Shown: piece by piece, positions 43,944 to 63,450 of the stretch | How positions within the stretch are numbered: position 1 is the stretch's first letter | Layout of the letters: every line of letters starts with the position of its first letter | Origin: Myxococcales bacterium | GTDB taxonomy: Bacteria; Myxococcota_A; UBA9042 | NCBI GenBank assembly: GCA_009692425.1 | Contig: SHZF01000016.1 | Location: 1 to 64,000, forward strand | Length of the DNA stretch: 64,000 nt | Reading direction: 5' to 3' | The notes under the pieces: generated by a model | Seen by the model: the letters and a program-made list of their open reading frames with translations, nothing else | Told to the model about the DNA's origin: nothing | Database searches by the model: none | Position numbers and translations under genes: made by a program

Positions 43944-43949
43944 GCGACG

Positions 43950-44930
43950 CTAGCTGCGCAACGCCTTGAGCTTCTGGACGAGTTCGGGCACGACGACGAA
44001 CGCGTCGCCCTGCAGCCCGTAGTCTGCCACCTTGAAGATCGGCTCGTCGTCGCGGGTGTTGATGGCGACGATGACCTTGGAGTTCTTCATGCCGGCGAGG
44101 TGTTGCACCGCGCCCGAAATCGCGATCGCCAAGTACAGTTGCGGCGCGACCACCTTGCCGGTCTGGCCGATCTGGTAGTCGTTGGGCGCATAGCCATCGT
44201 CGACGGCGGCCCGGCTCGCCCCGATCGCGGCGCCCAGCACGTCGGCGAGCGGCTCGATGACCTTGAACCCGCCGCGCTCCGGCTTGAGCCCGCGCCCCCC
44301 TGACACGACGATGGTGGCCTCGTTCAGGTCGGGTCGCGACGATGCCGTGCCTTCGAACGACACGAAGCGCGCCGCAGCCCGCCCCGCGTCCACGCTGGCG
44401 GCGAATGCCTGCACCGGGCTGGCGCCTCCTGTCGGCGCCGCGACGTCGAACGCCGAAGCGCGCACGCTGATCACCTGTACCGGTGTGTCGATTACGACGT
44501 CGCCGAGCAAGTTGCCCGCCCACATCGGGCGGCGGAACGCGATGCCGGCCTTTGTATCGACCAGGGCGACCACGTCCGACGCCATCCCCGCGGCGAGGCG
44601 CACGGCCACCCGCGGCAGCCCGTCCTTGCCCAGCGATGTCGCTGCGGCCGCTACGGCGGTGGCGCCGATCGCCTTGGCCAAGTCGCTGACAACCTTGGCC
44701 CAGACGGCCGCCACCGGGTGGGCCAGCGCAGCGTTATCGGCGACGTGCACCGCCGTGGCGCCGTACCCGGTCAGCGCCTCGGCCACGCCCGCGCAGCCCG
44801 AGCCCAGCACCGCAAACTCAATCGAATCGCCCCGCCTGGCCGCAACCTGGCGCGCGAACGACACCGTGGCGAGCGCCACCTTCTTCGGTTGGCCGTGGTC
44901 GTGCTCGATGACGACAAGAATCTTGCCCAT
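43950..44930 (-). CDS. etfA: Electron transfer flavoprotein alpha subunit EtfA
   Basis: 326 residues from the ATG at 44930 ([14 protein letters not shown]). The C-terminal FAD domain carries [54 protein letters not shown] and the [21 protein letters not shown] block. It forms a heterodimer with EtfB and shuttles electrons from acyl-CoA and other dehydrogenases to the quinone pool via ETF:quinone oxidoreductase. It lies 21 bp after etfB on the same strand. No dehydrogenase is adjacent. Confidence 0.96.
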
Positions 44931-44951
44931 GGGGAACCTCCACAGTGTCGA

Positions 44952-45707
44952 TCAGATGGCGCGCGCTTCCGTTCGCAGCTTCAATATCAACTCGTCGACA
45001 TCCTTGACCATCACGCCCGCCACGCGACCCGGCGGCGTGCTCATGGCGACCACGCGGACCTTGGGCGTTGCCGCGCCAAGCCCGAGATCGTCGAGTTCGA
45101 GTTCATCGAGCGGCTTCTTCTTCGCCTTCATGATGCCGGTCAGGCTGGCATAGCGCGGCTCGTTCAGGCGCAGGTCCGCGCTGATGACGCACGGCAGCGT
45201 CAGCCCGAGGACCTCGAGGCCGCCGTCCACCTCGCGCGTCACCCGGACTTCCGACCCCACCACCTCGATCTTGGAGGCAAACGTCGCCTGGGGCCAGCCG
45301 AGGTACTCCGCCAGCAGTTGGGCGACCTGGTTCGAATCGCAGTCGACCGCCTGCTTGCCCAGCAGCACGATGTCGGGCTCCTCCTTGGCGACCACGGCCG
45401 CGTAGATGCGCGCGATGAGGTCGGAGTCGATTGCGGCCTCGTCGGCGTTGACCAGGAGGGCCCGGTCGATGCCGCGGGCCAGCGCGCCCTGGCGCAGGAA
45501 TCGGGCCGTGTCTTCGTCGCCGATGCCGACCACCACCGTCTCCGTTCCCTCGTGGGCTTCGGCGAGCTGTAGCGCGCCCTCGATGGCGTTCTCGCAGAAA
45601 GGATTGAGAATGTACTCAACGTCGCCCTCGACCCAGCGCCCGTCGGCCGCGACGTGCAGCCGGGCGTTGGGGTCACTGACGCGCTTGGCCGAAACGAGAA
45701 TCTTCAT
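44952..45707 (-). CDS. etfB: Electron transfer flavoprotein beta subunit EtfB
   Basis: 251 residues from the ATG at 45707 (MKILVSAKRVSDPNARL); the frame is open to 45836 but the upstream part is a Pro/Arg leader without conservation. ILNPFCENAIEGALQLAE, LLGKQAVDCDSNQVAQLLAEYLGWPQATF and the LPCVISADLRLNEPRYASLTGIMKAKKKP recognition-loop region are classical EtfB. It binds AMP and docks partner dehydrogenases. It is first in an etfB-etfA pair, with a promoter candidate about 130 bp upstream. Confidence 0.96.
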   Translation of the reverse strand: MKILVSAKRVSDPNARLHVAADGRWVEGDVEYILNPFCENAIEGALQLAEAHEGTETVVVGIGDEDTARFLRQGALARGIDRALLVNADEAAIDSDLIARIYAAVVAKEEPDIVLLGKQAVDCDSNQVAQLLAEYLGWPQATFASKIEVVGSEVRVTREVDGGLEVLGLTLPCVISADLRLNEPRYASLTGIMKAKKKPLDELELDDLGLGAATPKVRVVAMSTPPGRVAGVMVKDVDELILKLRTEARAI

Positions 45708-45837
45708 GAGAAGAAGTCCTTGGGGATGGCGCTCTGGATACCGCAGGCGACCCTGTAGCAGCAACATCCGGGGCGGTGGGGGGCGCGGCAGGCGTGGTCG
45801 GGTCCGGCTCGGCAGATTCGCCCGACGCGACGGCAAA

Positions 45838-45867
45838 ACCCTACCCGCCCGCCTACGCCGTTGTCAA
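45838..45867 (-). promoter_or_regulatory. Candidate sigma-70 promoter for etfB-etfA
   Basis: On the minus strand, a perfect TTGACA (45867-45862) is followed after 18 bp by TAGGGT (45843-45838). Transcription would start near 45831, leaving a leader of about 124 nt before etfB. The -10 matches only three of six bases. Confidence 0.5.
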
Positions 45868-45882
45868 TCCGACGAGGCCCGT

Positions 45883-48477
45883 TCAACGCTCCAGATGAGG
45901 TTCGGCTTCGTCCGTCGCGCTTGCGTCGCCGTGCAACGCCACCGGTCGCGTTTCCGCCTCGATCTCGGCCCACAGCCGCTTGACCTCGGCATTGTCGGGG
46001 AAATGCGCCCGCAACGGGTCGAGCAGGTCGCGGGCCTCGCCATGGTTGCCTGTGCGTGTCAGGCAAGCCACCAAGGTGAGGGTCGTGGTGACATCGTCGC
46101 GGCGGAGTCCATGCGACACGCGCGCCGACTCGAGCGCATCATCGAAGCGGTCGAGCTGATACTGCACCTGCGCCATCCACTGCCAGTACAGCGACGCTGT
46201 GGCCGGCTGGTCCCGCAGCTTGGGCCAGAGCGACCGCACGAAGGCAAGCGCCTCGCGCGGTCGCTTGGCCCCCACGATGCACATCGACGCGCTGGTGCAC
46301 GCCTCGTAGTTGCCGGTCCGCTCGCACAATTCCTTGAACAGGTGAAAGGCTTCGTAGAGGCGGCCCACTTGGCCCAGCACGTGCCCTTCCAACATCCAGC
46401 CGTAGTCGGCTGTCGCCGGATTCGCCAGCAACTCCGCAGAAATGCGCCGCGCCGGCTCGAAAAGCCCACGCTTGGCGTAGAGCAGCCCGCGCAGGCCCTC
46501 CACGGCGAAGCGCCGGTCCGGATACTTCGCGCGCAAGGTCACGGCGATGCGCTCCACCAGGTCCGGCCGGGTTTCGAAGTAATGGCGGGCGACCGTCTCG
46601 CTCGTGGTCGGGTCGGCCACGATGGCGTCCAGCAGCACCGGCTCGCACAGGCGCGACCGCCCACAGACATCGAACACGCGGTTGCCCTCGCCTTCGCCGT
46701 GGCGCAGCAGCCACTTCAGGTCCTGGAGTGCACGCGCGCGGTCGCCCACCTCCAGCCGCGTGGCGAAGCGAAACAGGCGCGCATGGATGCTGTCGGGCCG
46801 CAGGGCGACGGCACGGTCGAATCGCAGCAGGGCCGTCGGCCGATCCCCCGCCTCGAGCGACTGGCGGCCGAGCAGGTAGAATGCGTGGTGGTCGTACGCA
46901 AAGGCATCTGCCACCAACGCCACCGCCTCGGTGCCAGCCAGAGCGCCGACCGCGACCGACACGTCGCGCGACTGGCGTTGGTGGGCGCCGGCCAGGAGCG
47001 CGCCCGCCAGCGCCAGCGCCGCACCGGAACCCCACAGGATGCGCCGCGTGATCCGCAAGTCCGTCGAGCGGTCCACATCGGTCGCCCGCGCCAGCGCCGA
47101 CGGCGGCGGCAGAATGCGCTCGAGCGCGCCGCCCAGCACGAGAAAGGGCACGAGGCAGCCAGCCAACTCCAGCGAGAAATCCACCAGGTTGTGCGCCAGC
47201 ATCACCGTCAGGCCGATGAAAAGCGGAGCGGCCGACGTCATGCCACGGCCGCGGCGGCGCAGGCCGTAGAACACCCAGAGCAGCCCGGCGAAGAACACGA
47301 TCGAAGCCGGCAGGCCGGCGCCGACCAGGCGCTCCAGCACGAAGTTCTCGGCGAAGTCGGTCCGCTTGGGAAAGGCCCCTTCGCCCATCCCGACCACCAC
47401 GGCGATGCCGCCTTCGCCGCGCCCGACCAACCAGGCGCCCCCGAGCAGGTCCGCAAGTCGGCGCCACACGGCCACCTTGGGGTCGCCGGCGAGATCACCG
47501 TTGGTAAACTGTTCTTCGAGGATCGGCAGCGCGAGCAGCGCGCCGGCCAGGCCGATGCCGAACGCGATCGAAAGCACGCGGCGCCGGGCGTCACGCGTTT
47601 CGGCCGCGACATCGGCACGCGAGGATTTGGCCGGGCGCGGAATGCTCAATATCGTCAGCGCCACCGTCAGGCCGAGCGCCAGCGCTCCACCCCTCGACGT
47701 GCTGGCAAGGACCGCGACGGCCAGCAAGGTGGCGCAGACACCGTACGCGAACCGCAATCCCGACGTCGGCGCCGCGACGACGCGCCCGATGGCGAGCGCG
47801 ATGCCGAGGTTGATAAAGCCCGCGATATGGTTCGGGTTTACGAACGTGGTCCGCCGCGCCAACGCGGCCAGGCCTGGCGACGTGACACTTTCGAGTTCCG
47901 GCACGTGCGCCAACAGCCACAGCAGGGCGGTTGCCACCGTTGCGCCGAGCAGCAGGTTGACGAACCGGTGGACAGCACTGCGACCGCCAGACCCCATCAG
48001 GACCAACGCGGTCAGCGCAGACGCCGCCCCGGCGATCAGGTAGACCGCAGCCTGGAACGCAGCGTCGCCCGGCGTCAACGCAATCGGCAACCACGCCCGC
48101 GGTGCCAGTGCCAAGGCTCGCGTCGCGGCATCGGCGAGATCGACGGCCGCCGGGTGCAGCAATGCGACGAGGCCGCGCGGCAGCGGCAGCACCTGCAGCG
48201 CGCTGTAGGCACCCAACCCGAGCCACAGCCACGCGATGCGCGTGCGCGGCGGCTTGTGGGGCACGGCGGGCCACGCGAACAGCCATGCGACGCCGACGCA
48301 GCCGGCCGCCACGGCCACCGCGAGCCACGACGCGCCGCCCTGCCAGAACGGCAGCCCCACGGCCAGACCCGCCAGCGTGAGGCGCGCCACCCAACGACTG
48401 GAGCGGCGTACGCGGCCGCTCGTCGATTGGCTCGCACGTGGCGGCGCGTCTTCCTCGTCGCGATCCAACTGCAGCAA
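45883..48477 (-). CDS. O-antigen ligase-like polytopic membrane protein with C-terminal TPR domain
   Basis: 864 residues; the TTG at 48477 directly follows the transaldolase stop, and a TTG at 48468 is an alternative; neither has a strong ribosome-binding site. The N-terminal half has about 11-12 hydrophobic helices, with the Wzy_C/O-antigen-ligase hallmark loop FVNPNHIAGFINLGIALAIG and ASTSRGGALALG. From about residue 480 the protein is soluble TPR-like helices (TALLRFDRAVALRPDSIHARLFRFATRLE, EARDLLDPLRAHFPDNAEVKRLW). Such proteins ligate or polymerise surface glycans, or glycosylate proteins. No polysaccharide genes are adjacent, so the glycan is unknown. Confidence 0.85.
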   Translation of the reverse strand: MLQLDRDEEDAPPRASQSTSGRVRRSSRWVARLTLAGLAVGLPFWQGGASWLAVAVAAGCVGVAWLFAWPAVPHKPPRTRIAWLWLGLGAYSALQVLPLPRGLVALLHPAAVDLADAATRALALAPRAWLPIALTPGDAAFQAAVYLIAGAASALTALVLMGSGGRSAVHRFVNLLLGATVATALLWLLAHVPELESVTSPGLAALARRTTFVNPNHIAGFINLGIALAIGRVVAAPTSGLRFAYGVCATLLAVAVLASTSRGGALALGLTVALTILSIPRPAKSSRADVAAETRDARRRVLSIAFGIGLAGALLALPILEEQFTNGDLAGDPKVAVWRRLADLLGGAWLVGRGEGGIAVVVGMGEGAFPKRTDFAENFVLERLVGAGLPASIVFFAGLLWVFYGLRRRGRGMTSAAPLFIGLTVMLAHNLVDFSLELAGCLVPFLVLGGALERILPPPSALARATDVDRSTDLRITRRILWGSGAALALAGALLAGAHQRQSRDVSVAVGALAGTEAVALVADAFAYDHHAFYLLGRQSLEAGDRPTALLRFDRAVALRPDSIHARLFRFATRLEVGDRARALQDLKWLLRHGEGEGNRVFDVCGRSRLCEPVLLDAIVADPTTSETVARHYFETRPDLVERIAVTLRAKYPDRRFAVEGLRGLLYAKRGLFEPARRISAELLANPATADYGWMLEGHVLGQVGRLYEAFHLFKELCERTGNYEACTSASMCIVGAKRPREALAFVRSLWPKLRDQPATASLYWQWMAQVQYQLDRFDDALESARVSHGLRRDDVTTTLTLVACLTRTGNHGEARDLLDPLRAHFPDNAEVKRLWAEIEAETRPVALHGDASATDEAEPHLER

Positions 48478-48478
48478 C

Positions 48479-49129
48479 TCAGGCCTGCCCTGGCACCTTG
48501 GCCCAGTCCTTGAGGAACTGCTCGTTGCCCCGGTCCGTCAGCGGGTGGTTGAACAACTGCTCCAGCACCTTGAACGGCACGGTGCAGACGTGCGCGCCCA
48601 GCTTGGCCGCCTGCAACACATGGACCGGATGCCGGATCGACGCCGCCAGCACCTGCGTCTGGAACCCGTAGTTCCGATACACCTGCAAGATGTCGCCGAT
48701 CAGCAGCATCCCGTCCTCGGAGATGTCGTCGAGGCGCCCCACGAACGGGCTGATGTAGGTGGCGCCCGCCTTGGCGGCCAGCAGCGCCTGGTTTGCGCTG
48801 AAGCACAGCGTTACGTTCGTGCGGATGCCCTCATCCGACAACGCCTTGCACGCCTGGATCCCCTCCTTCGTTAGCGGCACCTTGACCACGACCTGGGGAC
48901 CTTCCGCCGCGAGCGCGTGGGCCTGCTCCATCATGCCCGCGAAGTCCATCTTCGTGACCTCGAGCGACACCGGTCCTTTGACGAGTGCGAGGATTTCGCG
49001 CTTGACGTCTTCGAAGCGACGCCCCGTCTTGGCGACGAGCGTCGGATTCGTGGTGACGCCGTCGAGGATGCCCCACGACAGTGCGGTGCGGATTTCATCC
49101 ACCACGGCCGTATCGACAAAGAACTTCAT
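48479..49129 (-). CDS. tal: Transaldolase, short (fructose-6-phosphate aldolase-like) type
   Basis: 216 residues from the ATG at 49129 ([17 protein letters not shown]). DGVTTNPTL is the family's phosphate/substrate strand, and [14 protein letters not shown] holds the Schiff-base lysine. [31 protein letters not shown] and the [28 protein letters not shown] end are typical of the compact TalB-like/MipB class. It transfers dihydroxyacetone units in the pentose phosphate pathway. Its stop lies one base from the next gene's start, implying co-translation with the ligase-like protein by position only. Confidence 0.95.
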
Positions 49130-49208
49130 GGCTGCTTCTCCTGGCCGCGCGCGGGCGGCAGCTATGCAGCGGCACCGGCTTCGTTGCCGGGGCCCGCGGG
49201 AACGGGTG

Positions 49209-50513
49209 TCAACGGAACCAGAAAAACCACAGGCTTGCGGCACCGATGACCACTGCAGCGCCGACCATGACCGCGATGCCGACGATGCGCCTGCCCTTGC
49301 CGGCCGGAGCGGCGGGTGCGACGCGGGTGCCGCTGGCGTGCGACTTGTCGGCGTGTCTTTCGAGGCGGTCCGCGAGACTGGTGCCGTGCGCGGCCGTCTC
49401 CGCGATGTCGTCGAGCGGGACGTCTTGCAGGCGGTCCAGTAGCGCCGAGGCCCCGAGCTTCGACACGCTGCGCGCCTTGAGGTCATCCGGCCGCAACGGC
49501 ACCTGGCCCACCGTGAGGTCGAGGCGCCCGACGCGCCCGAGTTCCACCATTTCCGCGCGCAGCACGCTGGCCACGTCGACCAGTTGCACGTCCTGCCCTT
49601 CGGCGACGAGGCCGCGCATGAACGTGGCGAGGTCCGAACCGGTGACGCGCTTGTTGTGCTTGAACAGGTAGGCGGCGAGTTCCTGCTCGAGTTCGCGGGC
49701 CGATTGGTAGCGCCGCTTGATGTTCTTGGCAAGCGCACGTAGCACGATCTTGTCGAGCTCGCTGTCGACGTCGAGCCGCAGCGTCGAAGGCTTGGGCACC
49801 GCGCCGGCCCGCACCAGTTCGATGGTGTCGAGGTCGTTCTTGCCGACGAACAAGCGCCGCGCACACAGCAGTTCCCACAGCATGATGCCGACCGAGTAGA
49901 TGTCGGCGCGCGCATCGATGCTCTTGCCGCCGACTGCCTCCGGGCTCAGGTAGGCGAACTTGCCCTTGACCACGCCGGCATCGGTGATGGCGAGGTTGGA
50001 CGCCGCCCGCGCCAGACCGAAGTCGGTCAGCTTCACCTCGCCGTTGTGCGAGATCAGCACGTTCGGCGGGCTGACATCGCGGTGCACGATGCCGAGCGGC
50101 TGGTTGTTGGCGTCGGACTTTTCGTGGGCGTACGCGAGCGCCTTGGCGACCTCCATCGCCAGGTAGCACGCGATCTCAATCGGAAAAGGCTGCCCACGGT
50201 CGATGCTGCGCTGCATGATGCGCCGCAAGTTGCTGCCATCGACCATCTCCATCGCGACGAAGTACGTGTCGTCGGCACGACCGATATCGAAAATCTGCAC
50301 GATGTTCACGTGGTTGAGCTGCATCGACAGCCGCGCCTCGTCGAGGAACATCGTGACGAACTTCTGGTTCTGGCACAGCGACGGCAGCACGCGCTTGATC
50401 GCGACGGGCTTCTCGAAGCCCTCGATCGAAACGGCCACGCCCTTGTAGATCTCCGCCATGCCGCCGGCGTCGATCTTCTCGATAATGCGGTAGCGCTGGT
50501 GGACGCTGGCCAT
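49209..50513 (-). CDS. Membrane-tethered Ser/Thr protein kinase (PknB type)
   Basis: 434 residues from the ATG at 50513 ([25 protein letters not shown]). Kinase motifs: glycine loop DAGGMAEIY, catalytic VAIKR (Lys40), HRDVSPPN (144-151), DFGLA (164-168), SPEA, and [13 protein letters not shown]. The catalytic loop HRDVSPPN rather than HRDLKPxN is a common myxobacterial variant. After the domain (to about 290) come a helical spacer and a basic linker, then one C-terminal transmembrane helix ([21 protein letters not shown]), so it is tail-anchored with the kinase in the cytoplasm. It is divergent from the giant lipoprotein operon and shares its regulatory region. Confidence 0.93.
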
Positions 50514-50732
50514 GGGTGCGAATCGGCAAAGCTTCGAGGCGGTCGGAGCCCGCGGGAGTGTGCATGACACACCGGGGATTGGCTAGCCCGCGCTGCGCGC
50601 ACACGGTCGCCGTCGCGAGTGTGCGGGACTCCTATGCGGTGTGCGGTGCACATGTGCGGGCACGGGTGCGACCGCGGCCCTGGCGCTGCACCGCAACCCT
50701 GCCTGCGGCGTTCGGTCAGATTGCTTGCCATT
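50514..50732. promoter_or_regulatory. Intergenic region with clustered GTGTG/TGTGCGG dyads
   Basis: Between the kinase and the lipoprotein operon lie several related sites: GTGTG-N5-CACAC at 50558-50572, CGCACAC-N14-GTGTGCG at 50598-50625, direct TGTGCGG copies at 50620, 50640 and 50653, and the palindrome GCACATGTGC at 50648-50657. Their distance (about 75-175 bp) upstream of the sigma-54 element is where enhancer-binding proteins normally bind. Binding factor unknown; prediction only. Confidence 0.5.
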
Positions 50733-50748
50733 TGGCATGAACATTGCA
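50733..50748 (+). promoter_or_regulatory. Sigma-54 (-24/-12) promoter for the giant lipoprotein operon
   Basis: TGGCATGAACATTGCA fits the sigma-54 consensus TGGCACG-N4-TTGCA with a single mismatch, and keeps the invariant GG (50734-50735) and GC (50746-50747) exactly 10 bp apart. Initiation near 50759 would give a 66-nt leader before the ATG at 50825. Such promoters need an ATP-dependent enhancer-binding activator; none is encoded in the window. Confidence 0.65.
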
Positions 50749-50824
50749 TGACTGGCCACGACTCCGGCGCGTCCCGCGCAGGGGAGCGGATGTCCGCGGA
50801 GTGCGTGACAGGAGTGACGTCGAA

Positions 50825-53800
50825 ATGTTCGAGACAAACAAGCTGGCGGGGATTCTGGGGGCGACGCTGCTGGCGTCCGTCGCGTGTTCTGCGGAGCACA
50901 GCAACGGCGAAGTGGAGGAGCCCGAGGAGTGCGACGATGGCAACGCGGTCGACACCGACGCCTGCCGCAACGACGGCACCAAGGCGCGTTGCGGGGACGG
51001 CGTGCAGCGCAAGGACAAGGACTCGCTCGAAGAGTGCGACCTCGCCAGCAAGAACGACGACCATGGCGAGTGCACGAAGACCTGCAAGCTGAAGCGCTGC
51101 GGCGATGGGTTCGCGCAGCCTGGCGAGGAGTGCGAAGACGGCAACCTCGACAGCAACGACCTGTGCCTGCCGAACTGCAAGCTCGCAAAGTGCGGGGACG
51201 GCCAGTTCCGCGTCGGCGTCGAGGCCTGCGACGACGGCAACGCGGCGAACGACGACGGCTGTACGACGACGTGCAAGCTCGCCACCTGCGGCGACGCCTT
51301 CACCCAGCCGGGCGAGGCGTGCGACGACGGCAACACGTCAAACGGCGACACCTGCCTCACGACGTGCGTCAAGGCCTCGTGCGGCGACGGCGCGGTCAAC
51401 GTGCCCAACGGGGTCACCGACGCGTGCGACGACGGCAACAAGAATCCTTACGACGCCTGCACGAACGTGTGCGAGGTGGCCGTGTGCGGCGACAAGCTGG
51501 TGCGGCAGGGCGTCGAAGCGTGCGATGACGGCAACAAGGACGACACCGACGCGTGTACGACGGCGTGCAAGCTGCCGACCTGCGGCGACGGCTTCGTGCA
51601 AAAAGGGGAAGCGTGCGACGACGCCAACCAGGACACGCACGACAGCTGCCTGCCGACCTGCATCGTCGCGACTTGCGGCGACGCGGTCGTGCAACTTGCC
51701 GGAAACGCGTCAGAACAGTGCGACGACGGCAACCAGACGGGCAACGACGACTGCACGCCGGTGTGCAAGGCGAACGTGTGCGGCGACGGCTTCCTCTACG
51801 TGGGCGTCGAGGCCTGCGACGACGGCAACAAGGACGATGCCGACGGCTGCACGACGAAGTGCAAGGCCGCGACCTGCGGCGACGGCTTCGTGCAGAGCCC
51901 CGCGGGCGCCGGAGGGGCGTCAGAGGAGTGTGATGACGGCAACAAGTCGAACCAGGACGCGTGCCTGAACACGTGCCTCAAGGCGAAGTGCGGCGACGGC
52001 CAGAAGGGCCCGGGCGAAGGCTGCGACGACGGCAACGCCAACCAGAACGACGCGTGCACGAACGAGTGCAAGCTCGCGAAGTGCGGCGACGGCCTCGTGC
52101 AGCAGGGCGTCGAACTGTGCGACGACGGCAACGAGAAAGACGGCGACGGCTGCACGGCACAGTGCAAGCCGGCCAGTTGCGGCGACGCGCAGGTTCAGCC
52201 GGGCGAGCAGTGCGACGACGGCAACAAGTCGAACAACGACGAGTGCCTGAACACGTGCGTCAAGGCCGGGTGCGGCGACGGCTTCAAGGGCGCCGCCGAG
52301 CAGTGCGACGACGGCAACTCCAACAATCAGGACGCGTGCCTGAACGCGTGCCTGCTGGCGATATGCGGCGACGGCTTCGCGCGGACCGGTGTCGAACAGT
52401 GCGACGACGGCAACAAGAGCAACAACGACGCCTGCACGCTCGGCTGCAAGCTTGCGGCATGCGGCGACGGCTTCGTGCAGCCCGGCGAGCAGTGCGACGA
52501 CACGAACGCGAGCCCCTACGACGGCTGCCTGCCGACGTGCGTGCTGGCGACGTGCGGCGACGGCCTCGTGAACGCGCCGAAGGGCGTCACCGAGTCGTGC
52601 GACGACGGCAACCAGGACGACACCGACGCCTGCCTGAAGTCCTGCGTGCCCGCGAAGTGCGGCGACGGCGTGACGTGGAAGGGCAAGGAAGGCTGCGACG
52701 ACGCCGACAAGGACGACACCAACGGCTGCACTGGCGCCTGCGAGGTGGCCAAGTGCGGTGACGGCATCAAGCAGAAAGGCGAAGCCTGCGACGACGGCAA
52801 CAAGGACGAGACGGATGGCTGCCTCGGCTCGTGTGTCGGGGCGAGCTGCGGCGACGGGTTTGCCCAGAAAGGCAAGGAAGCCTGCGACGATGGCAACGCC
52901 GACGATACGGACGCCTGCCTGAAGACGTGCGAGTTGGCGAAGTGCGGCGACAGCGTCCTGCACATCGGTGTCGAGGCCTGCGACGACGGCAACCCCGACG
53001 ACACCGACGGCTGCACGAAGACGTGCAAGCTGGGCACGTGCGGCGACGGGATCGTGCAAAAGGGCGAGGACTGCGACGACGGCAATAACACGAACACCGA
53101 CAAGTGCCTGAACACGTGTATCAAGGCGTCGTGTGGCGACGGCTACCTGCTGGGCTCCGGCGGCGGGGCGACGCCGGAAGCGTGCGACGATGGCAACTTC
53201 TCCAACAGCGACGGCTGCCTCGATACGTGCGTCAAGGCGAAGTGCGGCGACGGCGTGGTGCAGGTCGGCGTCGAAGGCTGCGACGATGCCAATCCGACGC
53301 AGACCGACGGCTGCCTCAACACGTGCGTGGTGGCCAAGTGCGGCGACGGCGTCGTGAAAGCGGGCGTCGAGGGGTGCGACGATGGCAACACGGCGAACAC
53401 GGATGCCTGCCTCAACACGTGCGTCAAGGCGGCGTGCGGCGACGGCTTCGTCGAACCGACGGCCGAGAAGTGCGACGACGCCAACGCGTCGAATGGTGAC
53501 GCGTGCGTGGCGGACTGCCAACTCGCCAAGTGCGGCGATGGTTTCGTGCAGGCCGGCGCCGAGCCGTGCGACGACGGCAACCCCGACGACACCGACGCGT
53601 GCCTGAAGACGTGCAAGGTCGCCGTGTGCGGCGACGGCTTCGCCCAGGCTGGCGTCGAAGCGTGCGACGACGGCAACCAGGACACCGGAGACGCCTGCCT
53701 GCCGGGTTGCGTCGCAGCGTCGTGCAGCGACGGCTTCGTGTTTGCCGGCGCCGAGCAGTGCGACGACGGCAATCAGGTGTCGGGCGACTTCTGCGGGCCG

Positions 53801-54205
53801 AAGTGCGCCTTCGAGTGCAGCCTAGGCGACGCCCAGAAGCAGCTGGGCAAATCATGCTACGTCGGCTTCACGACGGCGCTGTCGTGGAGCCAGGCATCGG
53901 CAGCGTGCACGGTGCTCGGCGCGCACCTGGTCGCGGTGCAGTCCAAGGAAGAGAACGACGCGGTCAAGACACTGCTGGGCGCCCTCGGCTCGGCGTGGAT
54001 CGGCCTGACGGACCAGTTCTCCGAAGGCACGTTCGTGTGGCAGGTGGCCCCTTCGAAGTTCCTCGCCGCCCTGTTCACCGCGTGGGCCCAAACCCAGCCG
54101 GACAACGACCCGGACGGCGAAGCGGACTGCGCCGGCATCAGCGCGTCGGGCTGGAGCGACCACAAGTGCTCCGACAAGAAGGCCTATGTTTGCGAACATG
54201 ATTGA
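50825..54205 (+). CDS. Giant DUF4215 Cys-rich repeat lipoprotein with C-type lectin domain
   Basis: 1,126 residues from the ATG at 50825 (AGGAG about 11 bases upstream). A signal peptide ends LLASVAC, so Cys21 is the probable lipid site. From about residue 34 to 990 there are about 30 copies of the roughly 30-residue DUF4215/'Myxococcus cysteine-rich' repeat, with core CGDG...GVEACDDGN...DACxxxCxxAxC; this forms a rigid, disulfide-rich, probably Ca-binding rod. The last 130 residues are a C-type lectin fold: [32 protein letters not shown], then QPDN with a following Glu, and GWSDHKC...YVC. QPD is the galactose-type Ca/sugar motif. It overlaps the next gene by 8 bp. Confidence 0.9.
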
Positions 54206-57200
54206 ACGCGCGCGCTTCGGATGCTTCGCGGTGACGGTTCTAACGCTGGCGGCGTGCAGCGAGCCGGACAAGGCCGTCGTCATCGGGTGCGGGACCGGGG
54301 TGATCGACCCTGGCGAGGCCTGCGACGACGGCAACCCCGACGACCACGACCTCTGCACCAACGCGTGCACGGTGGCCGCGTGCGGTGACGGTGTCGTCCG
54401 GTTGTTCGAGGGCGTCACGCCGCCTGCTGCCAAGGGCGCGCCGGCGTCGGCACCGTTCATCCCCGAGGGCTGCGACGACGCCGACCTCGACGACACCGAC
54501 GGGTGCACGGCAGCGTGCAATCCGGCGCGGTGCGGCGACGGCAAGGTCTGGAAGGACCACGAAGCCTGTGACGACGGCAACGCCAACGCTGCGGACGGGT
54601 GCAGCACGGCCTGCAAGCTGCCGACGTGCGGCGATGGCATCGTGCAAGCGGGCGAGGCCTGCGACGACGCCAACGCAGTCAACACCGACGCCTGCCGCTC
54701 GAACTGCCTCGTGGCCACGTGCGGCGATGCCGAAGTGCACGTGGGCACGGAAGCCTGCGACGACGGCAATCCCGAGCCCGGCGATGCCTGCACGAACGGT
54801 TGCCAACTGGCGGCGTGCGGCGACGGCATCGTGCGGCTCGGCGTCGAGGCGTGCGACGACAAGAACCTGATCGACAACGACGGCTGCACGAACACGTGCA
54901 AGCTGCCGACTTGCGGCGACGGCCTGGTGCAGAAGGGCGAGGCGTGCGACGACGCCAACGCGAACCCGAACGACGCCTGTCTGCCCGCGTGCGTGGTGCC
55001 ACGCTGCGGCGATGGCGTGGTCCAGACGGGTGTCGAAGCGTGCGACGACGGCAACCTCGTCGATACTGACGCGTGCCGGGCCTCGTGCCAGAAGGCAACG
55101 TGTGGCGACGGCGTTGTGCTGGCCGGCGTCGAAGCCTGCGACGATGGCGACAAGGACGACACGGACGGGTGCACGGCCCAGTGCAAAGAACCGTCGTGCG
55201 GCGACGGCGCGGTGCAGAAGGGCGAGGCATGCGACGACGGCAACGTGTCCGACGCCGACGGTTGCCTGTCGACGTGCTTGGCCGCCTCGTGCGGCGACGG
55301 TGTGTTGAACGTGCCCAGCGGGGCCAAGGAGACGTGCGACGACGGCAATGCGAGCGCGAACGACGCCTGCAAGCCGAATTGCACGGCGAACACGTGCGGC
55401 GACGGCATCGTGCTTGTCGGAGTTGAAGCGTGCGACGACGGCAACAAGGACGACGGCGACGGCTGCACGCATGAGTGCAAGCTGGCGACCTGCGGTGACG
55501 GCCTCGTGCAGCAGGGCGAAGCGTGCGACGACGGCAATGCCAACGACGGCGACGCGTGCCTCTCGACGTGCGTGAGTTCGAACTGCGGCGACGGCGTCGT
55601 GAACGCATCGAACGGCACGCCCCCGGTCGGACCGGCGGAAGCGTGCGATGACGCGAATGCCGACGATTCCGACGCGTGCCTTTCGATCTGCCAGCCGGCC
55701 AAGTGTGGCGACGGCATTCTGTGGGCCGGCGTCGAGGCATGCGACGACGGCAACGGCAACGACAACGACGCCTGCTCGAACTCGTGCAAGCCGGCTGGCT
55801 GCGGCGACGCCAAGCTTCAGCCCGGCGAGCAGTGTGACGACGGCAACCTCGACGCCGGCGACGCCTGCACGAACAGTTGCCTGACCGCGCTGTGCGGCGA
55901 CGGCGTGGTCGGCGCGCCTAACGGTGCCACGGAGCAGTGCGACGATGGCAACGCCGAACCCAGCGACGCGTGCACCGCAGGCTGCAAGATTGCGGTGTGC
56001 GGCGACAAGGTCCTCTACGTCGGCGTCGAGGCCTGCGACGACGGCAATGGCGACGACACCGACGGCTGCACGAAGGGCTGCAAGCTCGCCACATGCGGCG
56101 ACAATGTCGTGCAGAAGGCGGGTGCAGCCGGCGGCGCGTCCGAGGCGTGCGACGACGGCAACCTATCAGACGCCGACGCGTGCCTGTCAACCTGCGTGCT
56201 GGCCAGTTGCGGCGACGGCAAGGTGCTCGCGGGCGGCGAGACGTGCGACGACGGCAACGGCAACCCCAACGACGCGTGCAAGAACGATTGCAGCGCGGCG
56301 CAATGTGGCGACGGCGTCCTCTGGGCCGGCAAGGAAGCGTGCGACGACGGGAACACGAAGGGCGGCGACGCCTGCAGCGCGACATGTACGCTGCCCGCGT
56401 GCGGCAACGGCAAGCTCGACATTGGCGAGGGCTGCGATGACGGCAACAAGTCGAACGCCGATGCGTGCCTGACCACCTGCCAGAAGGCGAGCTGCGGCGA
56501 TGGCTTCGTGCAACTCCAGGGCGGAGCGACCGAGGCGTGCGACGATGGCAACACGAACGCCACCGACGCCTGCCGCTCGGACTGCAAGGCCGCAACGTGC
56601 GGCGACGGCGTCGTGTGGCTGGGCCAGGAGGCGTGTGACGACGGCAACGGCAAGGAAGGCGACGGCTGCTCCGCGCAATGCACGCTGCCTGCGTGCGGTG
56701 ACGGGCTCGTGCAGGCGGGCGAGGGCTGCGACGACGGCAACGCGTCCAACGCCGACGCGTGCCTCAAGACGTGTCAGGTGGCGCAGTGCGGCGATGGGTT
56801 CCTGTGGCAAGGCAAGGAGAACTGTGACGACGCGAACCTCGTGCCAGGCGACGGCTGCTCGCCCCTGTGCCAAGGCGGCGTGTGCGGCGACGGCGTGCTC
56901 GACCCCGGCGAGACCTGCGACGACGCCAACGTCGCGAATACGGACGGCTGCCTGTCGACGTGCACACCTGCCAGTTGCGGCGACAGCTTCGTCCAGGCCG
57001 GCAAGGAGTCGTGCGACGACGGCAACCTGTCGAACCAGGACGCGTGCCTCGTCGGCTGCAAGGCTGCCACGTGCGGCGATGGCGTCGTGCACGTCGGCGT
57101 CGAGCCGTGCGACGACGGCAACGCGGTGCAGACCGACGCCTGCCTGACCGGCTGCAAGAAGGCGTTCTGCGGCGACGGCGTCAAGTGGGCCGGCGTCGAG

Positions 57201-57240
57201 GCGTGCGACGACGCAAACTCCGACAACACCGACGGCTGCC
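50915..57240 (+). repeat. About 60 tandem DUF4215-coding repeats across two genes
   Basis: A degenerate 85-110-bp unit recurs through both lipoprotein genes, anchored by TGCGACGACGGCAAC (Cys-Asp-Asp-Gly-Asn) and a TGCGGCGACGG core (Cys-Gly-Asp-Gly). Roughly 30 copies occur in each gene. Copies differ at the codon and residue level, so the array looks old, not freshly amplified. It also produces long open frames in other phases. Confidence 0.85.
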
Positions 57241-60128
57241 TGATCGACTGCAGCGTGTTCGACCCGTGCCAGACGTTGGCGGTGAATGCCGTCGTGCCCG
57301 CCGCTGCGTGCTTTGGGGCCGTGCCCGCGCAGATCAAGCTGCTGGGTTCCGGCTTCCTGCTCCTGGGCGGCAAGAAGCCCAAGGTCGAGATCGACGGCGC
57401 CAAGGTCGATGTGACGGTCGGCGGCTCATGCGAAGTCGTCGCGTTCGGCGCGGCCCAGCGTTGCAGCGAGCTGACGCTTTCGCCTGCGCCGACGAGCCTG
57501 GGCAACCACAAGATCGTCATCGAGAATCCGAGCGACAAGGGTTGCCCGGCCCAAGCGACGTTCTCCGTCGGGCCGCCGCCGACTGTCACCACGGTCCAGC
57601 CCGCCGCGACCTGTGAAGGCACGGTGTCGCTGACCCTTGGCGGCGCCAACTTCCTCACCGGCACTACGGTCACGCTCGGCACGGCAAAGGCGGCCTCGAC
57701 GAGCGTGACGTCGGCCACCCAGCTCGAAGCGACGTGGAACGGCGTCGCGCCTGGGACCTACAGCGTGTCGGTCTCCAACGGCCCCGGTTGCGGCACCACC
57801 AAGTTCAATGCCGCGACCATCAAGGCCAAGCCCTTGGTGTTTTTCGCGGACCCGCCGGTCGTGTTCCAGCCGCTCGCTCTGCCGCTCACGGTGTGGGGCT
57901 CCGGCTTCGGCGACGGTTCGGCGAAGGGCAAGCCCGTGGCCGCTGCGGTGCGCAACCAGGGCACTGGCGTGACGACGAGCGTCGCCTTCAGCTACAACCC
58001 GGCCAAGCCCCAGACGCTCACGGTCCAACTGCCGGCCGCGCCGAAGCTGTTGGCCGCGGGCACGTACGAAATCCTCATCGACGACAACTACACGTGCGCC
58101 GTGACGCTGGCCGGCGCGTTCGTGATCAGCGCGACACAGACGGTTCAGCTCGGGCTCGTCGATCCGCCGTTCGGCAAGCAGGGCACGGCCACCGCGCTGA
58201 CCCTGCGCACGGCGGCGAGCCCGCCGGTCGGCTCCAAGTCGCTGCAAAATGGGATGCGGGTGTGGCTGCGCAGCGCCGACGGCAATACGATCGTCGCAGC
58301 GAGCAGCGTCGGCTTCGTCAGCGGCCAGTTGGCGACGCTGCTGGCACCGGCCAGCCTCGCAGTCGGCGCGTGGGACGTCATCGTCGCCAACCCCGACGGC
58401 TCGATTGGCGTGCTGCTGGCCGGGTTCACGGTGACGGCGGCGGGGCCACCGGTCATCGAGACGATTGCGCCCGGCTCGGTGCCGAGCGGCGCTGCGTCGG
58501 TCACGGTGCTGGGCAGCGGCTTCTCCGCGCAGGCCACCGTGACCCTGGCGTGCACCGATGCGGCCGGTGTGACATCGAGCGTGACGCCCGCGCTCGTCGG
58601 CGCGCCGACCGCGCAGGCCATCAAATTCAACACACCCGGAACGCTGGCGGCGGGGACATCGTGCGTCGTGCGCGTCAACCACCCGGACGCCACGTGGGCT
58701 GAATTTGCCGCACTCGGCGTGACGGCACCGTCGGAGAACCTGGCGGCGTTCACGAGCACCGGCGTGGCATTCCAGCAGGGGCGCCGCGCGCTCCAGTTGG
58801 TGTCGCTGCGGGCGACGACGGCCGCGCGCTTCCTGTACGCCATCGGTGGCGACACCGGCACGGAGTCCGGCGCGCTGGCGAGCCTCGAGGTGGCCCAGGT
58901 CGACAACGTCGGCAAGCTCTCGGCGTGGCGCACGCTGCCGACGCCGCTGCCGGTCGCCCGCACGCTGCACGCCGCGGTGGCTGTCGGCCGCTCGCTCTAC
59001 GTCATCGGTGGCAATGGTGGTGCGGGGGCGGTCGCGACCACGCTGCGCGCCCACGTGCTCGACCCGGGCGACGCCCCGCAGTTCACGGGCGCCGACGTCG
59101 CGGTGGGCAGCGGCGTGACTGCGGGCCTGTGGACGTACCGGGTGGCTGCGCGCATGGCCGCTTCGAACGCTGCCAATCCCAACGGCCTGACGCTGCCGTC
59201 CGAGCCCTTCTCGCTGCGCGTGCCGGCCGGCTTGCAACTGAGCCCGACGCTGCAGTGGGCCCCGGTGACGGGCGCGGCCAAGTACGCCATCTATCGCACT
59301 GCGACCGCCGACCAGACTGCAGCAGACTGCAAGCTCGTCTTCGAAGTCGATGGCACAGACTCCAGTTGGACCGACACGAACGTGCCCGCGTCCGGTGCCG
59401 CCCCACGCCAGCTCGGTGACCTGTCGTCGTGGACGTCGCTCGACAGCCTGCCCGAGGCCCGCGAAGGGCTGGCCGCCGTCAGTGCGCGCGACCCGGCCGC
59501 CGGCGCTACGTGGCATGTGTTCGTAGGCGGTGGCCGATCGACGGGCAACGCCCTGCCGGTCAAGCTCGTACGCCTGACCGTGACCGTGGGCAGCGGCGGC
59601 AAGACCACCGAAGGCACGTGGACCACGTCCGGCCTGCCGTCGTTGGTCTCTGGCCGTTGGCAACTCGGCGCCATGCGCGTCGACAGTACGGTGACGACGC
59701 GCGTGACGTCGGCAAACGAGCAATGGGTCTACTTCACGCCGGGCCTCGCGGGCAACGGCCCCGATGCCAACCTCGAAGCGGGCTCCGTCGGTGCCGGCGG
59801 CACGCTGGGCACACTGGCGAAGCTCGACTCCTCGTGGTCAGGCAAGGCGGGCGCGGGCGTCGTCGCGGCGGCAAACCAGCTGTTCGTGTTCGGCGGCGAT
59901 GCGGCGGCCCCGTCCAAGGGCGGCGTCTCCGGCCAACTATGCGGTCCCGGCCAGACCTGTGCGAAAAGCGCCGGGCTGCCGCAGGTCCAGAACTTCAACG
60001 GCGGCATCACGCTCGCGACCGACCGCTACCTGTTCGGGATGTGTGTCGAGGCGGGCCGCATCTTCGCTGGCGGCGGCAAGGGCACGGCGTCGGGCGTCCT
60101 GGCCACGGTGGAGTCGACGCTGTGGTAG
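54198..60128 (+). CDS. Giant DUF4215 lipoprotein with IPT/TIG and Kelch-like domains
   Basis: 1,976 residues from the ATG at 54198 (overlapping the previous stop, ATGATTGA); an ATG at 54186 is an alternative. The signal peptide [20 protein letters not shown] has a textbook lipobox. About 30 DUF4215 repeats fill residues ~35-1020. Then come several IPT/TIG-like immunoglobulin folds (for example VKLLGSGF-type turns as [51 protein letters not shown]) to about 1510. The rest contains Kelch-like blades ([48 protein letters not shown]) with an inserted fibronectin-III-like segment ending [11 protein letters not shown]. It is probably a long cell-surface rod ending in an adhesive propeller, acting with the lectin protein. 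Confidence 0.9.
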
Positions 60129-60176: not shown

Positions 60177-61784
60177 CTACTTGCGGTGGGCCAACCGCGC
60201 CTGCGCCTGATTCGCCACATGCAGCGTCGCGGCCCGGGTGCGCACGCTGGCGGCCGACCGCGTCGCGACCCCGATGGCCCGTTCCGGCAGGGCGCCCAGC
60301 ACCAGGATGGCCGCCGCCGTCGCCCCCATCGCCCACGTCAAGCCGGTCTCGCGTATGTAGACGTGCTCCCCATTCTTGCCGTCTGTGCGCTTGCCTTCGG
60401 GCCGCATGTAGATGTGCACGGTGATGCGCAGGTAGTAGTAGGCGCTCACCACCGAGTTCAGCACCAGGATCACGATGTGAGGTAGGTACGCGCCGCCATC
60501 GACCGCCAGCACCTCACGAATCAGCACGAGCTTGCCGAAGAAGCCGAGCGTCGGCGGCACGCCGGCCAGGCTGATCATTGACAGCGCCAGCACCGCGCCA
60601 GCGAGCGGGTGGCGGCGGCCGAGACCGAGCAGTTGGGTCGGCCCCGTCAGTTCTTCGCCAGCGTGGCCGAGTGCGGTCAGCGCCGCAAAGGCCGCCAGCG
60701 ACGCCAGCGCGTAGCCGAGGAGGTAGAACGGCACGGCGGCGCCCGGGGTCAGGAAGCCGCTCAACGTCGCATCGGGGCTCGCCGCCACCATGCCGAGCAG
60801 CAGGTAGCCGGCGTGCGCCACGGCCGAATACGCCAACATCCGCTTGGCGCTCAGTTGGGTCAGCGCGAACAGGTTGCCGACCGTCATCGTGATGACGGCC
60901 GTCGTCGCGAGCACCTTGGGCAGCGGCACGTGGAGCAGTGCCGCGCCGGGGCCTTGCAGCGCGCCGTACACGACCTTCAGGAACGCGGCGAACGCGACGG
61001 CCTTGACGCCCGCCGACATGAAGCCCGTGATCGGCGTCGGCGCGCCCTCGTACGCGTCCGGCGCCCACATGTGGAACGGCACGGCCGCGACCTTGACCAG
61101 GAACGCGGCTGCCACGAGCGTGACCCCCAGGCTCAGCCACAGGTCGTCGCCGGGCCGCGGGTTTTGCAACGCGCGCTGGATTTCGACGAACGTGGTGCCA
61201 CCCGACAGGCCGAACAGGAACGCCGCGCCGTACAGGAACACCGCAGACGCCACCGAGCCGACGATGAAGTACTTCATGCCCGCTTCGACAGACGCCGCGC
61301 TCGACCGCTTGAACGCGACCAGCACGTAGACCGAGAGCGACATGATTTCGAGCGAAAGGAACATCGTCAGCAAGCTCTCGGCCGACACCATCGCGCCCAT
61401 GCCGAACACCGCGAACGACACGAGTGCATAGTATTCGCCGTACGCCATGCCCTGCTCTTCGAGATAGCGCGGGCTCGTCAAGTGGGCCACCGCGCCGCAC
61501 AGGCACACGAGCGCGACGAAGAACAGCGACAGCTTCGAGGCTGAGATGTGCAGCGCAAACGCGACGGTGCGCATCTCGTGCGGCCCGGTTTTCCACAGCA
61601 GCGCGGCGACGGCCAGGGCGCCCAGACATGCCGCTGCATTGAAGGGACCCCAGAACCGCCGCGATGTGCTGAGGGCTGGCAGGGATGTGCCGTGGGCCGG
61701 CAGGAACGGGTCGGCGACGAGCGTGAAAAGCGCCGCCAGCAGCACGACGAACAGGGGCGTCAACAGCGCAAGGTCATGAAGCAT
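60177..61784 (-). CDS. nuoN: NADH-quinone oxidoreductase subunit N (NuoN)
   Basis: 535 residues from the ATG at 61784 (MLHDLALLTPLFVVLLA), with an AAGGAA site upstream. It is a polytopic antiporter-like subunit: the conserved SLEIMSLSVYVLVAF (quinone/proton path Glu), FKVAAVPFHMWAPDAYEGAPTPITGFMS-type loop (here VKVAAVPFHMW), FALTQLSAKRMLAYSAVAHAGYLLLG, and SLAGVPPTLGFFGKL are NuoN hallmarks. It pumps protons in complex I in the inner membrane. Last gene of the L-M-N order on this strand; an Ala/Arg-rich tail follows the last helix. Confidence 0.96.
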   Translation of the reverse strand: MLHDLALLTPLFVVLLAALFTLVADPFLPAHGTSLPALSTSRRFWGPFNAAACLGALAVAALLWKTGPHEMRTVAFALHISASKLSLFFVALVCLCGAVAHLTSPRYLEEQGMAYGEYYALVSFAVFGMGAMVSAESLLTMFLSLEIMSLSVYVLVAFKRSSAASVEAGMKYFIVGSVASAVFLYGAAFLFGLSGGTTFVEIQRALQNPRPGDDLWLSLGVTLVAAAFLVKVAAVPFHMWAPDAYEGAPTPITGFMSAGVKAVAFAAFLKVVYGALQGPGAALLHVPLPKVLATTAVITMTVGNLFALTQLSAKRMLAYSAVAHAGYLLLGMVAASPDATLSGFLTPGAAVPFYLLGYALASLAAFAALTALGHAGEELTGPTQLLGLGRRHPLAGAVLALSMISLAGVPPTLGFFGKLVLIREVLAVDGGAYLPHIVILVLNSVVSAYYYLRITVHIYMRPEGKRTDGKNGEHVYIRETGLTWAMGATAAAILVLGALPERAIGVATRSAASVRTRAATLHVANQAQARLAHRK

Positions 61785-61815
61785 CGCGGCTTTCCTTCGT
61801 CGGTCGCAGCGGCCG

Positions 61816-63450
61816 CTACTCGGCGCGCGCGTCGGCGTTGAGCAGTTGCTCACGCCGGAAATCGGCCGGTGCCCGCACCTGCAGGATCGCGGGACGCAGC
61901 GGTTGCACCATCGCGTGGACCGTGGCCTCCGACATGCCCAGCCAGCGGCCGGGCGCGACGCCGATCCAAACGATGAACACGCACAGCGCGCCCATCAGCA
62001 GGCGTTCGCGGCCGGTCAGGTCGTGCAACCCCTCGTTGTCGGGATTCGTCATGGGGCCGAAAAACACGCGGCGCACCACCGACAGCATGTAGACCGCGCC
62101 CAGCACGATGCCCGAGGTCGCGATGCCGGTGCCCACAAGCATCATCGTGCGCCAGCTCGTGCCCTCGCCCGCGGCCATCGACGAGCGCACTCCTTCCTTG
62201 AACGCGCCCGCGAAAATCAGGAACTCACCGACGAAGCCGTTCGTGAGCGGCAACGCGATCGAAGACATCGTCACGAACACGAAGAACGCCGCAAACACCG
62301 GCATCCGCTTGGCGATGCCGCCAAAGTCCGCAATCTCGCGGGTGTGGCGCCGTTCATACAGGAAGCCGACGAGGAGGAAGAGCGCTCCGGTCGAAAGGCC
62401 GTGGTTGACGCCTTGCAGGATGGCGCCCTGCAGCGCTTCTTCGTTGAACGCGACGATGCCGAGCATGACGAAGCCGAGGTGGCTCACCGACGAGTACGCG
62501 ACGAGCCGTTTCACGTCGGTCTGCACGTACGCCATCATCGCGCCGTAGACGATGCCGATGACCGCGAGAGCCAGCAGCACGGGGCTCGCCCAGCCGAGCG
62601 CGGCCGGGAAAAGCGGGATGGCAAACCGCAGCAGCCCGTACGTGCCGAGTTTCAGCAGCACGCCGGCCAGGATGACCGAGCCGGGCGTCGGCGCTTCGGT
62701 GTGGGCGTCCGGCAGCCAGGTGTGAAACGGGAACACCGGCACCTTGATGAGGAATGCCAGGGCGAACGCGGCAAACAGCCAATGCTGCTGCGTTTCCGTC
62801 AGGTCGAGCTGGGTCCACGCGCCGAGTTGGAAGGTGTTGCCGGCGTGCAGGTACATCCAGACGATCGCGACCAGCATGAGCAGCGAACCGAACATCGTGT
62901 ACAGGAAGAACTTCAGCGTCGCGTAGACCTTGTCGCGCCCGCCCCAGATGCCGATGATCAGGTACATCGGGACAAGCATCACCTCCCAGAATACATAGAA
63001 CGCGAGCAGGTCGACCGCCACCAGCGAGCCCAGCATGCCGGTCTCGAGCACGAGCAGCGCGATCGCAAACTCCTTCCACTTCTTGTCGATTGCCGACCAC
63101 GCGCCGACGAAGACAAGCGGCGTCAGGAACACGGTGAGCAGCACGTACGGCAGGCTGAGGCCGTCGATGGCCAGGGTCCAGCGCGCGCCGATGCTCGGAA
63201 TCCAGGAAGAATCGTCGGTCAGCTGCAGTCCGGCCCGCGCGGTGTCGGTCAGCGCCCACACGACCATGCCGAGCCCGAACGTAACGAGCGAACCGACCAG
63301 CGAGAGCGCCTTGTGCGCCCACTGCAGCGAGCCCGGGATCGTGACGCCGATCAGCGCAAAAAGCGTAGGCATCAGCACCAGTGCCGTCAGCAGCGGAAAG
63401 CCGTGCGACGGGTCCAGTTGCAGCCAAGCTTGAGTGAGCGCGGTGTCCAT
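61816..63450 (-). CDS. nuoM: NADH-quinone oxidoreductase subunit M (NuoM)
   Basis: 544 residues from the ATG at 63450. DGLSLPYVLLTVFLTPLVFV, FWEVMLVPMYLIIGIWGG (key glutamate), FLIKVPVFPFHTWLPDAHTEAPTPGSVILAGVLLKLGTYGLLRF, KRLVAYSSVSHLGFVMLG and GFVGEFLIF are signature NuoM segments. About 14 membrane helices; proton-pumping antiporter-like subunit of complex I. It lies 27 bp after nuoL and 31 bp before nuoN, consistent with one operon. Confidence 0.97.
   Translation of the reverse strand: MDTALTQAWLQLDPSHGFPLLTALVLMPTLFALIGVTIPGSLQWAHKALSLVGSLVTFGLGMVVWALTDTARAGLQLTDDSSWIPSIGARWTLAIDGLSLPYVLLTVFLTPLVFVGAWSAIDKKWKEFAIALLVLETGMLGSLVAVDLLAFYVFWEVMLVPMYLIIGIWGGRDKVYATLKFFLYTMFGSLLMLVAIVWMYLHAGNTFQLGAWTQLDLTETQQHWLFAAFALAFLIKVPVFPFHTWLPDAHTEAPTPGSVILAGVLLKLGTYGLLRFAIPLFPAALGWASPVLLALAVIGIVYGAMMAYVQTDVKRLVAYSSVSHLGFVMLGIVAFNEEALQGAILQGVNHGLSTGALFLLVGFLYERRHTREIADFGGIAKRMPVFAAFFVFVTMSSIALPLTNGFVGEFLIFAGAFKEGVRSSMAAGEGTSWRTMMLVGTGIATSGIVLGAVYMLSVVRRVFFGPMTNPDNEGLHDLTGRERLLMGALCVFIVWIGVAPGRWLGMSEATVHAMVQPLRPAILQVRAPADFRREQLLNADARAE

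Follow-up and report, generated by a model that had tools for sequence, protein, structure and literature searches.

The number of repeats in a surface protein is generally taken to drift freely. Why, then, do two neighbouring genes carry rods with the same number of repeats under different tips? The question is raised by a stretch of 64,000 nucleotides (hereafter, the window) of contig SHZF01000016.1 from a Myxococcales bacterium (GenBank assembly GCA_009692425.1; genome G000, 4.94 Mb in 137 contigs), in which two co-directional genes, called here A and B, overlap by 20 nucleotides, the start of B lying over the stop of A. An initial annotation, made from the sequence alone, described two overlapping lipoprotein genes, each with about 30 DUF4215 repeats in rods of about 960-985 residues, and proposed a paired surface recognition system of matched rods with distinct adhesive ends. 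Both genes and both rods were confirmed, and the pairing of matched rods is now backed more strongly than that annotation could know, by 12 of 12 two-gene loci spanning a threefold range of length.

Two rods of matched length

In both A and B, a lipobox is located shortly upstream of the first repeat, and the two proteins look like N-terminally anchored lipoproteins. The lipobox pattern was matched in 21 of the 24 proteins encoded at the 12 pair loci, including both window proteins; the B proteins of L093 and L101 and the A protein of L124 have a looser lipobox ending in HGC or CGC, accepted by eye. Based on the rods and the binding-type tips, we assume that A and B are exposed at the outer cell surface. 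Their rods match the Pfam family PF13948/DUF4215 with E-values of 4.8e-115 (A) and 2.3e-112 (B), corresponding to 376 and 368 bits for a cut-off of 27, and the NCBIfam family TIGR02232 ('myxo_disulf_rpt') with 520.9 and 565.9 bits (cut-off 20.8), with 28 stretches of A and 29 of B passing. Counting by cysteine anchors gives 30 repeats in each protein, for 958 (A) and 983 (B) residues between the lipid cysteine and the last anchor.

The A/B repeat counts of the 12 loci are 30/30 (window), 27/27, 10/11, 12/13, 12/13, 15/16, 16/17, 17/18, 11/12, 18/19, 30/31 and 18/19. The rod of B is thus one repeat longer than that of A at 10 loci and equal to it at two, with rods of between 10 and 31 repeats. 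These final counts combine cysteine anchors with reading by eye, and looser or stricter patterns shift them slightly (13/13 in L096, 14/16 in L100, 32 for B in L122). Measured in residues, the lengths of the two rods correlate with r = 0.9985 and a slope of 0.97, B exceeding A by 23 residues on average (range 0 to 46). When the partners were permuted 300,000 times, no match so close arose, and independent contrasts on three tip trees gave r of 0.998 to 0.999. The statistics of this length lock are strong for 12 loci. The metagenome-assembled genome NP119 holds two pairs (L093 and L101) of 10/11 and 16/17 repeats, each internally matched; L095 and L119, from the same genus, have 12/13 and 18/19 repeats, different in length yet each matched; and the genome G030 encodes one 18/19 pair plus a lone lectin rod of 12 repeats.

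The 12 pair loci (window, L091, L093, L095, L096, L100, L101, L104, L117, L119, L122 and L124, with a short flank on one side in L091, L096, L104, L117 and L124) come from 11 genomes, among them Myxococcales bacterium Baikal-deep-G136 (L091). A and B are adjacent and co-directional at all of them, with the order reversed (B, then A) in L096. L092, in which B is cut by the contig end, and L094, which lacks A, were left out of the correlation. The genomes concerned are named as Myxococcales, Polyangiaceae, Deltaproteobacteria or Proteobacteria and, we infer, all belong to Myxococcota.

Among the 52 genomes of the class, the head of B (960-residue query) was detected in 10, including the window's own, and lectins resembling the tip of A, at a loose threshold, in 25. 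A and B are adjacent in six of these genomes (the window's, G017, G029, G030, G034 and G038); among the other four genomes with the head, B carries a rod but lacks an A in G037 and showed no rod in G002, G021 and G024. A scan of named genomes yielded 55 B-head loci, 42 of them showing no rod and 13 with one, 11 of the latter with an adjoining A. An A-type lectin gene adjoins 11 of the 12 rod-bearing B genes for which a flank is available, versus none of the 42 other B loci (Fisher test, 1.3e-10, a value that ignores relatedness). Among these 42, the frame has an open 5' end in four (L099, L105, L115 and L138), so that rods may have been missed there, L123 and L139 have one and three motif matches and doubtful rods, and some flanks are short; in L113, a weak lectin match (E = 7e-14) located about 5 kb away on the opposite strand was not scored as adjacent. 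In a broader draw from the phylum, the B head was found in 52 of 377 genomes (E = 1e-40); this TIG plus kelch head is common in the phylum, often on a rodless lipoprotein. The tip of A was found in nine of 317 genomes of another class (E = 1e-33), four of them with the frame lengths of L096, L104, L117 and L124, four among the lone rods discussed below, and the ninth, G517, with a frame of 329 residues.

The two tips are of different types. As the initial annotation had it, A ends in a C-type lectin domain (Lectin_C, PF00059; E = 5.5e-19, 69.3 bits for a cut-off of 22.6), and AlphaFold modelled this tip with predicted local distance difference test (pLDDT) values mostly of 80-94 and two blocks at 59 and 65. 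In a sequence search of the PDB with A, the match region starts at residue 960 at least (i.e., in the last repeat or the lectin) in the best 60 of 153 chains. The Ca2+/sugar motif of C-type lectins consists of QPD or EPN together with WND. QPD is present in nine of the 12 A tips (missing in L096, L100 and L124), WND in that of L117 and W-x-D in nine others, L100 and L124 having neither. For B, an IPT/TIG plus kelch-like tip had been annotated. The predicted fold is in line with this: in the AlphaFold model, the head is made of a kelch propeller preceded by immunoglobulin (Ig)/IPT-like sandwiches, its Foldseek matches include plexin IPT domains, and the propeller superimposes on the kelch domain of human LZTR1 with Z = 33.8 and a root-mean-square deviation of 2.3 over 287 aligned residues. 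At the level of Pfam, only a weak kelch match was obtained (Kelch_1, 21.4 bits, cut-off 20.1), with no TIG match in the window's B at E = 0.01; the related B protein of L094 does match TIG (E = 7.4e-11).

A possible twin rod and its alternatives

In most rods of A and B, the repeats most alike are those three units apart (P = 0.0005 for A and 0.009 for B), and the likeness between A and B is greater within the same phase of this triad (P = 0.0005; all three values are approximate). Inserts, present in six of the 12 pairs, fall mainly in one phase (18 of 25 in A, 11 of 14 in B), which is common to A and B if B is read as one repeat longer.

Among the three loci examined for duplications (L119, L104 and L095), both L119 and L104 contain, in each gene, a private three-repeat duplication with 85-87% identity over 285 nucleotides, versus 74-78% for the most similar stretch between the genes. 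The longest exact match between A and B is 20-32 nucleotides in every pair, and matches within the genes of L119 reach 59 and 78 nucleotides at the three-unit lag. In six of the 12 pairs, both genes match themselves over a longer stretch than they match each other; in the six others (window, L091, L093, L095, L096 and L117), the longest A-B match equals or exceeds the longest internal match of at least one gene. The private duplications and the short A-B matches suggest that equal length was not simply copied from one gene to the other, at least not recently. Since the visible growth is separate in each gene and the match is nevertheless kept, we infer that equal rod length is under selection.

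We consider it somewhat probable that A and B each form one half of a cell-surface device, with their rods side by side on the same cell. Locked repeat counts combined with different heads suggest that the two proteins work together as a single device. After lipidation, the rods of A and B would stand adjacent on one cell, packed in register, and would probably be stiffened or bridged by Ca2+: the strong acidity of both rods makes such bridging a natural idea, and their strongly acidic CDDGNxxDTDGC units presumably resemble known Ca2+-binding loops. The lectin of A and the Ig/IPT-kelch head of B would then be held at a fixed relative height and bind jointly to a target, for instance a glycan along with a protein, whether on prey, on kin or on matrix. 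A gain or loss of repeats in one rod would have to be matched by its partner, otherwise the heads would fail to meet, and a need for heads of equal height would explain the locked counts. A three-repeat period with a single face that tolerates inserts would agree with a packing of the two rods along their remaining faces. More tentatively, the device might be a two-protein stalk in which the rods wind or pack in cis with three repeats per turn, and whose height each species tunes by adding blocks to A and to B independently, selection keeping them equal (B = A or A + 1). Such a stalk would be a two-legged bacterial receptor with a length rule readable in the genes. We put forward the physical twin-rod model as a proposal.

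Several observations weigh against it. The sample consists of 12 pairs. Both rods are strongly acidic (net charge of -41 to -147 across the pairs), which opposes close packing without cations. The likeness at lag three is missing in the B proteins of L093 and L095, and the lone rod L166 also shows the three-unit spacing, which is therefore not specific for pairs. In L095, the identity within genes (74-78%) is about that between A and B (78%). The trees of the A tips and B tips branch differently, which may reflect either an exchange of partners or weak trees. A rod-bearing B protein of 21 repeats has no A beside it (L094, in genome G037), and five A-like rods of 8 to 13 repeats (L089, L166, L167, L168 and L169) lack an adjoining B. 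Finally, the contact between A and B is deduced rather than seen in a model: AlphaFold predictions that included 10 repeats at the end of the A rod and six at the end of the B rod gave a rod mostly with pLDDT <50, and for this reason we claim no helical rod model.

Matched and species-variable lengths would also be expected if the rods did not interact and each of them just cleared the same surface coat, the thickness of which would set their length in a given species. This is unlikely, since the rods of unlike length in NP119 and in G030 show that a single coat does not dictate a single length; the match to within one repeat at all 12 loci, with B one repeat longer at 10 of them, also argues against it. 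We regard as rather improbable that the match follows from DNA exchange, in which gene conversion or the copying of blocks would homogenize the neighbouring rods while their length is not selected. The rods are indeed adjacent, repetitive and similar, the mean likeness between A and B in register (0.526) is close to that within genes at lags three and six (0.543 in A, 0.501 in B), with an excess in register in L095, L096 and L119, and the six pairs with relatively long A-B matches mentioned above point in the same direction, as do the exact places of inserts, which coincide in five cases for 2.75 expected, three of the five being in L096. However, the places of inserts coincide in just two cases across the window, L091, L100, L122 and L124, exact A-B matches remain short compared with those within the genes of L119, and the recent duplications of L119 and L104 are private to each gene.

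An encounter in trans, with A on one cell meeting B on another in adhesion or kin recognition, appears distinctly improbable. Myxobacteria are social, the tips differ and both proteins are apparently surface-anchored, in agreement with such a role, but a contact in trans fixes the sum of the two lengths and not their equality, and the adjacent, co-directional arrangement of the genes at all 12 loci also speaks against it. As trans contact needs no equality and a coat cannot explain two lengths in one cell, the cis twin rod is favoured.

The kinase neighbour and the candidate promoter

The initial annotation had combined the pair with its surroundings into a recognition system controlled by sigma-54 and governed by a divergently transcribed Ser/Thr kinase, P0003 (Pkinase, E = 1.8e-38, with a hydrophobic C-terminal stretch seen by eye). 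The start of the kinase is located only 311 bp upstream of A, a candidate -24/-12 element lies between them, and the host genome encodes an RpoN-type protein. We nevertheless consider this system very improbable, on the evidence of the relatives. The annotation had asked for a search of related genomes for the pair together with its kinase, and had itself named relatives carrying each gene separately, with no kinase, as refuting evidence; the pair does recur, at the 12 loci described, but its kinase neighbour is not kept, so that for the kinase this refutation applies. In 20 kinase loci, one from each of 20 further family members (all 21 except G002) and read with 2.3-9.9 kb of upstream flank, no A-B pair was found beside the kinase. 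Instead, the kinase adjoins the same 864-residue open reading frame (ORF; window positions 45883-48477) in all 20 loci and a transaldolase-like ORF, recognized by eye, in 19. In the genome G017, from the same family, the pair and the kinase are on separate contigs. Conversely, within the available flanks, kinase frames occur near only two of the 11 other pair loci, 4-5 kb away and 28-30% identical to P0003; they are hardly its orthologs. Matches to P0003 at E = 1e-60 or better were obtained in all of 36 genomes, including the window's own, and kinase candidates are numerous in these genomes; TIGR02232/PF13948 repeat matches were present in 35 of the 36. It seems that the kinase has long had other genes as neighbours and that, in this genome, the pair joined it only later. 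On the synteny of the 20 family loci, we rejected the kinase as a regulator of the pair.

A -24/-12 element is present upstream of A, as annotated, with one mismatch among its 12 specified bases. Shuffled versions of the window contain 0.96 such matches on average. Genome-wide, we found 24 perfect and 74 one-mismatch sites, and the reversed-pattern control gave 69 sites with up to one mismatch: sites with one mismatch are hardly more frequent than background here. The 24 perfect sites, in contrast, are probably genuine and suggest that this organism has an active sigma-54 regulon. At 10 of the 12 loci, the 500 bp upstream of the pair contain no match to the element, even with two mismatches allowed. 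The window and L095 each have a one-mismatch site at a similar distance (-152 and -161 from the codon of the lipid cysteine), and the upstream regions of four loci align poorly. Sigma-54 control of the pair is thus possible, but the element is not conserved and the control is unproven.

Features of the pair and its immediate neighbours in the window
Feature	Positions	Strand	Description
Ser/Thr kinase P0003	49209..50513	-	Divergent neighbour, judged not to be part of the pair
Candidate -24/-12 element	50733..50748	+	TGGCATGAACATTGCA; one mismatch, not conserved, sigma-54 role unproven
Gene A	50825..54205	+	Putative lipoprotein of 1126 aa, lipobox SVAC; 30-repeat Cys-rich rod and C-type lectin tip
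A rod	50885..53803	+	30 TIGR02232/DUF4215 repeats of ~32 aa with a three-unit period; bounded by the lipid Cys and the end of the final repeat
A tip	53804..54202	+	C-type lectin domain (Pfam, residues 1018-1124), QPD...WSD motif
Gene B	54186..60128	+	Putative lipoprotein of 1980 aa, lipobox LAAC; 30-repeat rod, Ig/IPT-like domains and kelch propeller
B rod	54255..57245	+	From lipid Cys to end of last repeat; 30 repeats
B head, part 1	57273..58736	+	About five Ig/IPT-like beta-sandwich domains (counted by eye on the strand list; model residues 196-683)
B head, part 2	58740..60125	+	Kelch beta-propeller (model residues 685-1146) with an insert that is Fn3-like by eye

Relation to known systems and surroundings of the pairs

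The closest analogy that we can offer is TraA/TraB, the outer-membrane exchange receptor of Myxococcus xanthus. According to two papers on it (PMC3325183; PMC6626042), it is a two-gene myxobacterial surface system with a lectin-like recognition domain and Cys-rich repeats, for which the authors suggested a rigid stalk. TraA differs by its PA14 domain, its TIGR04201 repeats and its C-terminal MYXO-CTERM, and TraB by its OmpA-like domain. In contrast, both A and B look like N-terminal lipoproteins and have TIGR02232 rods of matched length. At E = 0.01, PA14 was not detected in either of them with Pfam, nor were TIGR04201 repeats or MYXO-CTERM with NCBIfam, in which TIGR02232 alone matched; their C-termini correspond to the lectin and the propeller.

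The repeat family of A and B is shared with other TIGR02232/PF13948 proteins. Of 20 other repeat-rich regions, examined with a stricter pattern, none contained two adjacent compact rods, most being interrupted or differently spaced, so that there is no unrelated pair usable as a control for length matching. One region (L146:721-19129, in G016) has a giant Cys-rich frame of 2891 residues next to another of 3122, neither of them a compact rod. The tip of A matches mannose receptor 2 and DC-SIGN by sequence (best E = 8.9e-19), but sits on a bacterial Cys-rich rod. The head of B resembles LZTR1, Keap1 and plexin IPT domains in its fold; B is a bacterial lipoprotein with about 19% identity, and the shared fold shows no shared function. 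GhpA, the grappling-hook protein of Aureispira, is likewise a large bacterial surface protein with a chain of Ig-like domains, and its match to B, by fold comparison alone, is globally weak (TM-score at most 0.32).

We found no description of such a pair in the open-licence full-text literature on this repeat family or on matched repeat numbers. The components are known; as far as our searches reach, a length-locked two-protein rod is undescribed. Two separate genes hold their counts within one repeat of each other across 10 to 31 repeats, despite duplications of their own in some loci. The vague guess of two adhesins in one operon thereby becomes a testable claim of physical partnership, and matched counts offer a route, from sequence only, to the detection of interacting rods. 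They also draw attention to what seems to be a recognition device of uncultured, myxobacteria-like organisms that has not yet been described.

On its kinase side, the pair of the window borders a block conserved in the family (42576-50513), which comprises the kinase, the transaldolase-like ORF, the 864-residue ORF and further ORFs. On its other side (60177-63450) are genes resembling nuoN and nuoM by eye, with no match in the corresponding stretches of the 20 relatives. A repeat frame of 532 residues is located about 6.6 kb from the kinase in one of these relatives (L044). The lone rod-bearing B of L094 (5163-12904), which has a uniform spacing of 31 residues, is encoded just downstream of two permease genes of the MacB/FtsX type. 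The lone 12-repeat lectin rod of L089 (21-7916) follows genes for a protein with an eCIS core domain (PF13699) and for a ceramidase-like protein, and is possibly linked to a locus for an extracellular injection system. In L100, a protein with Dictyostelium-type Cys repeats (PF00526; 12036-16025) is encoded immediately 3' of B. Frames linked by BLAST to MopE-motif proteins adjoin the pair in five of the 12 loci (L095:12878-17394, L122:12938-18325, L101:13462-17610, L117:4450-6717 and L100:1-3560); putative metal-binding motifs of the MopE type (PF11617) were detected in the frames of L095, L122, L101 and L117, i.e., in all four that were scanned.

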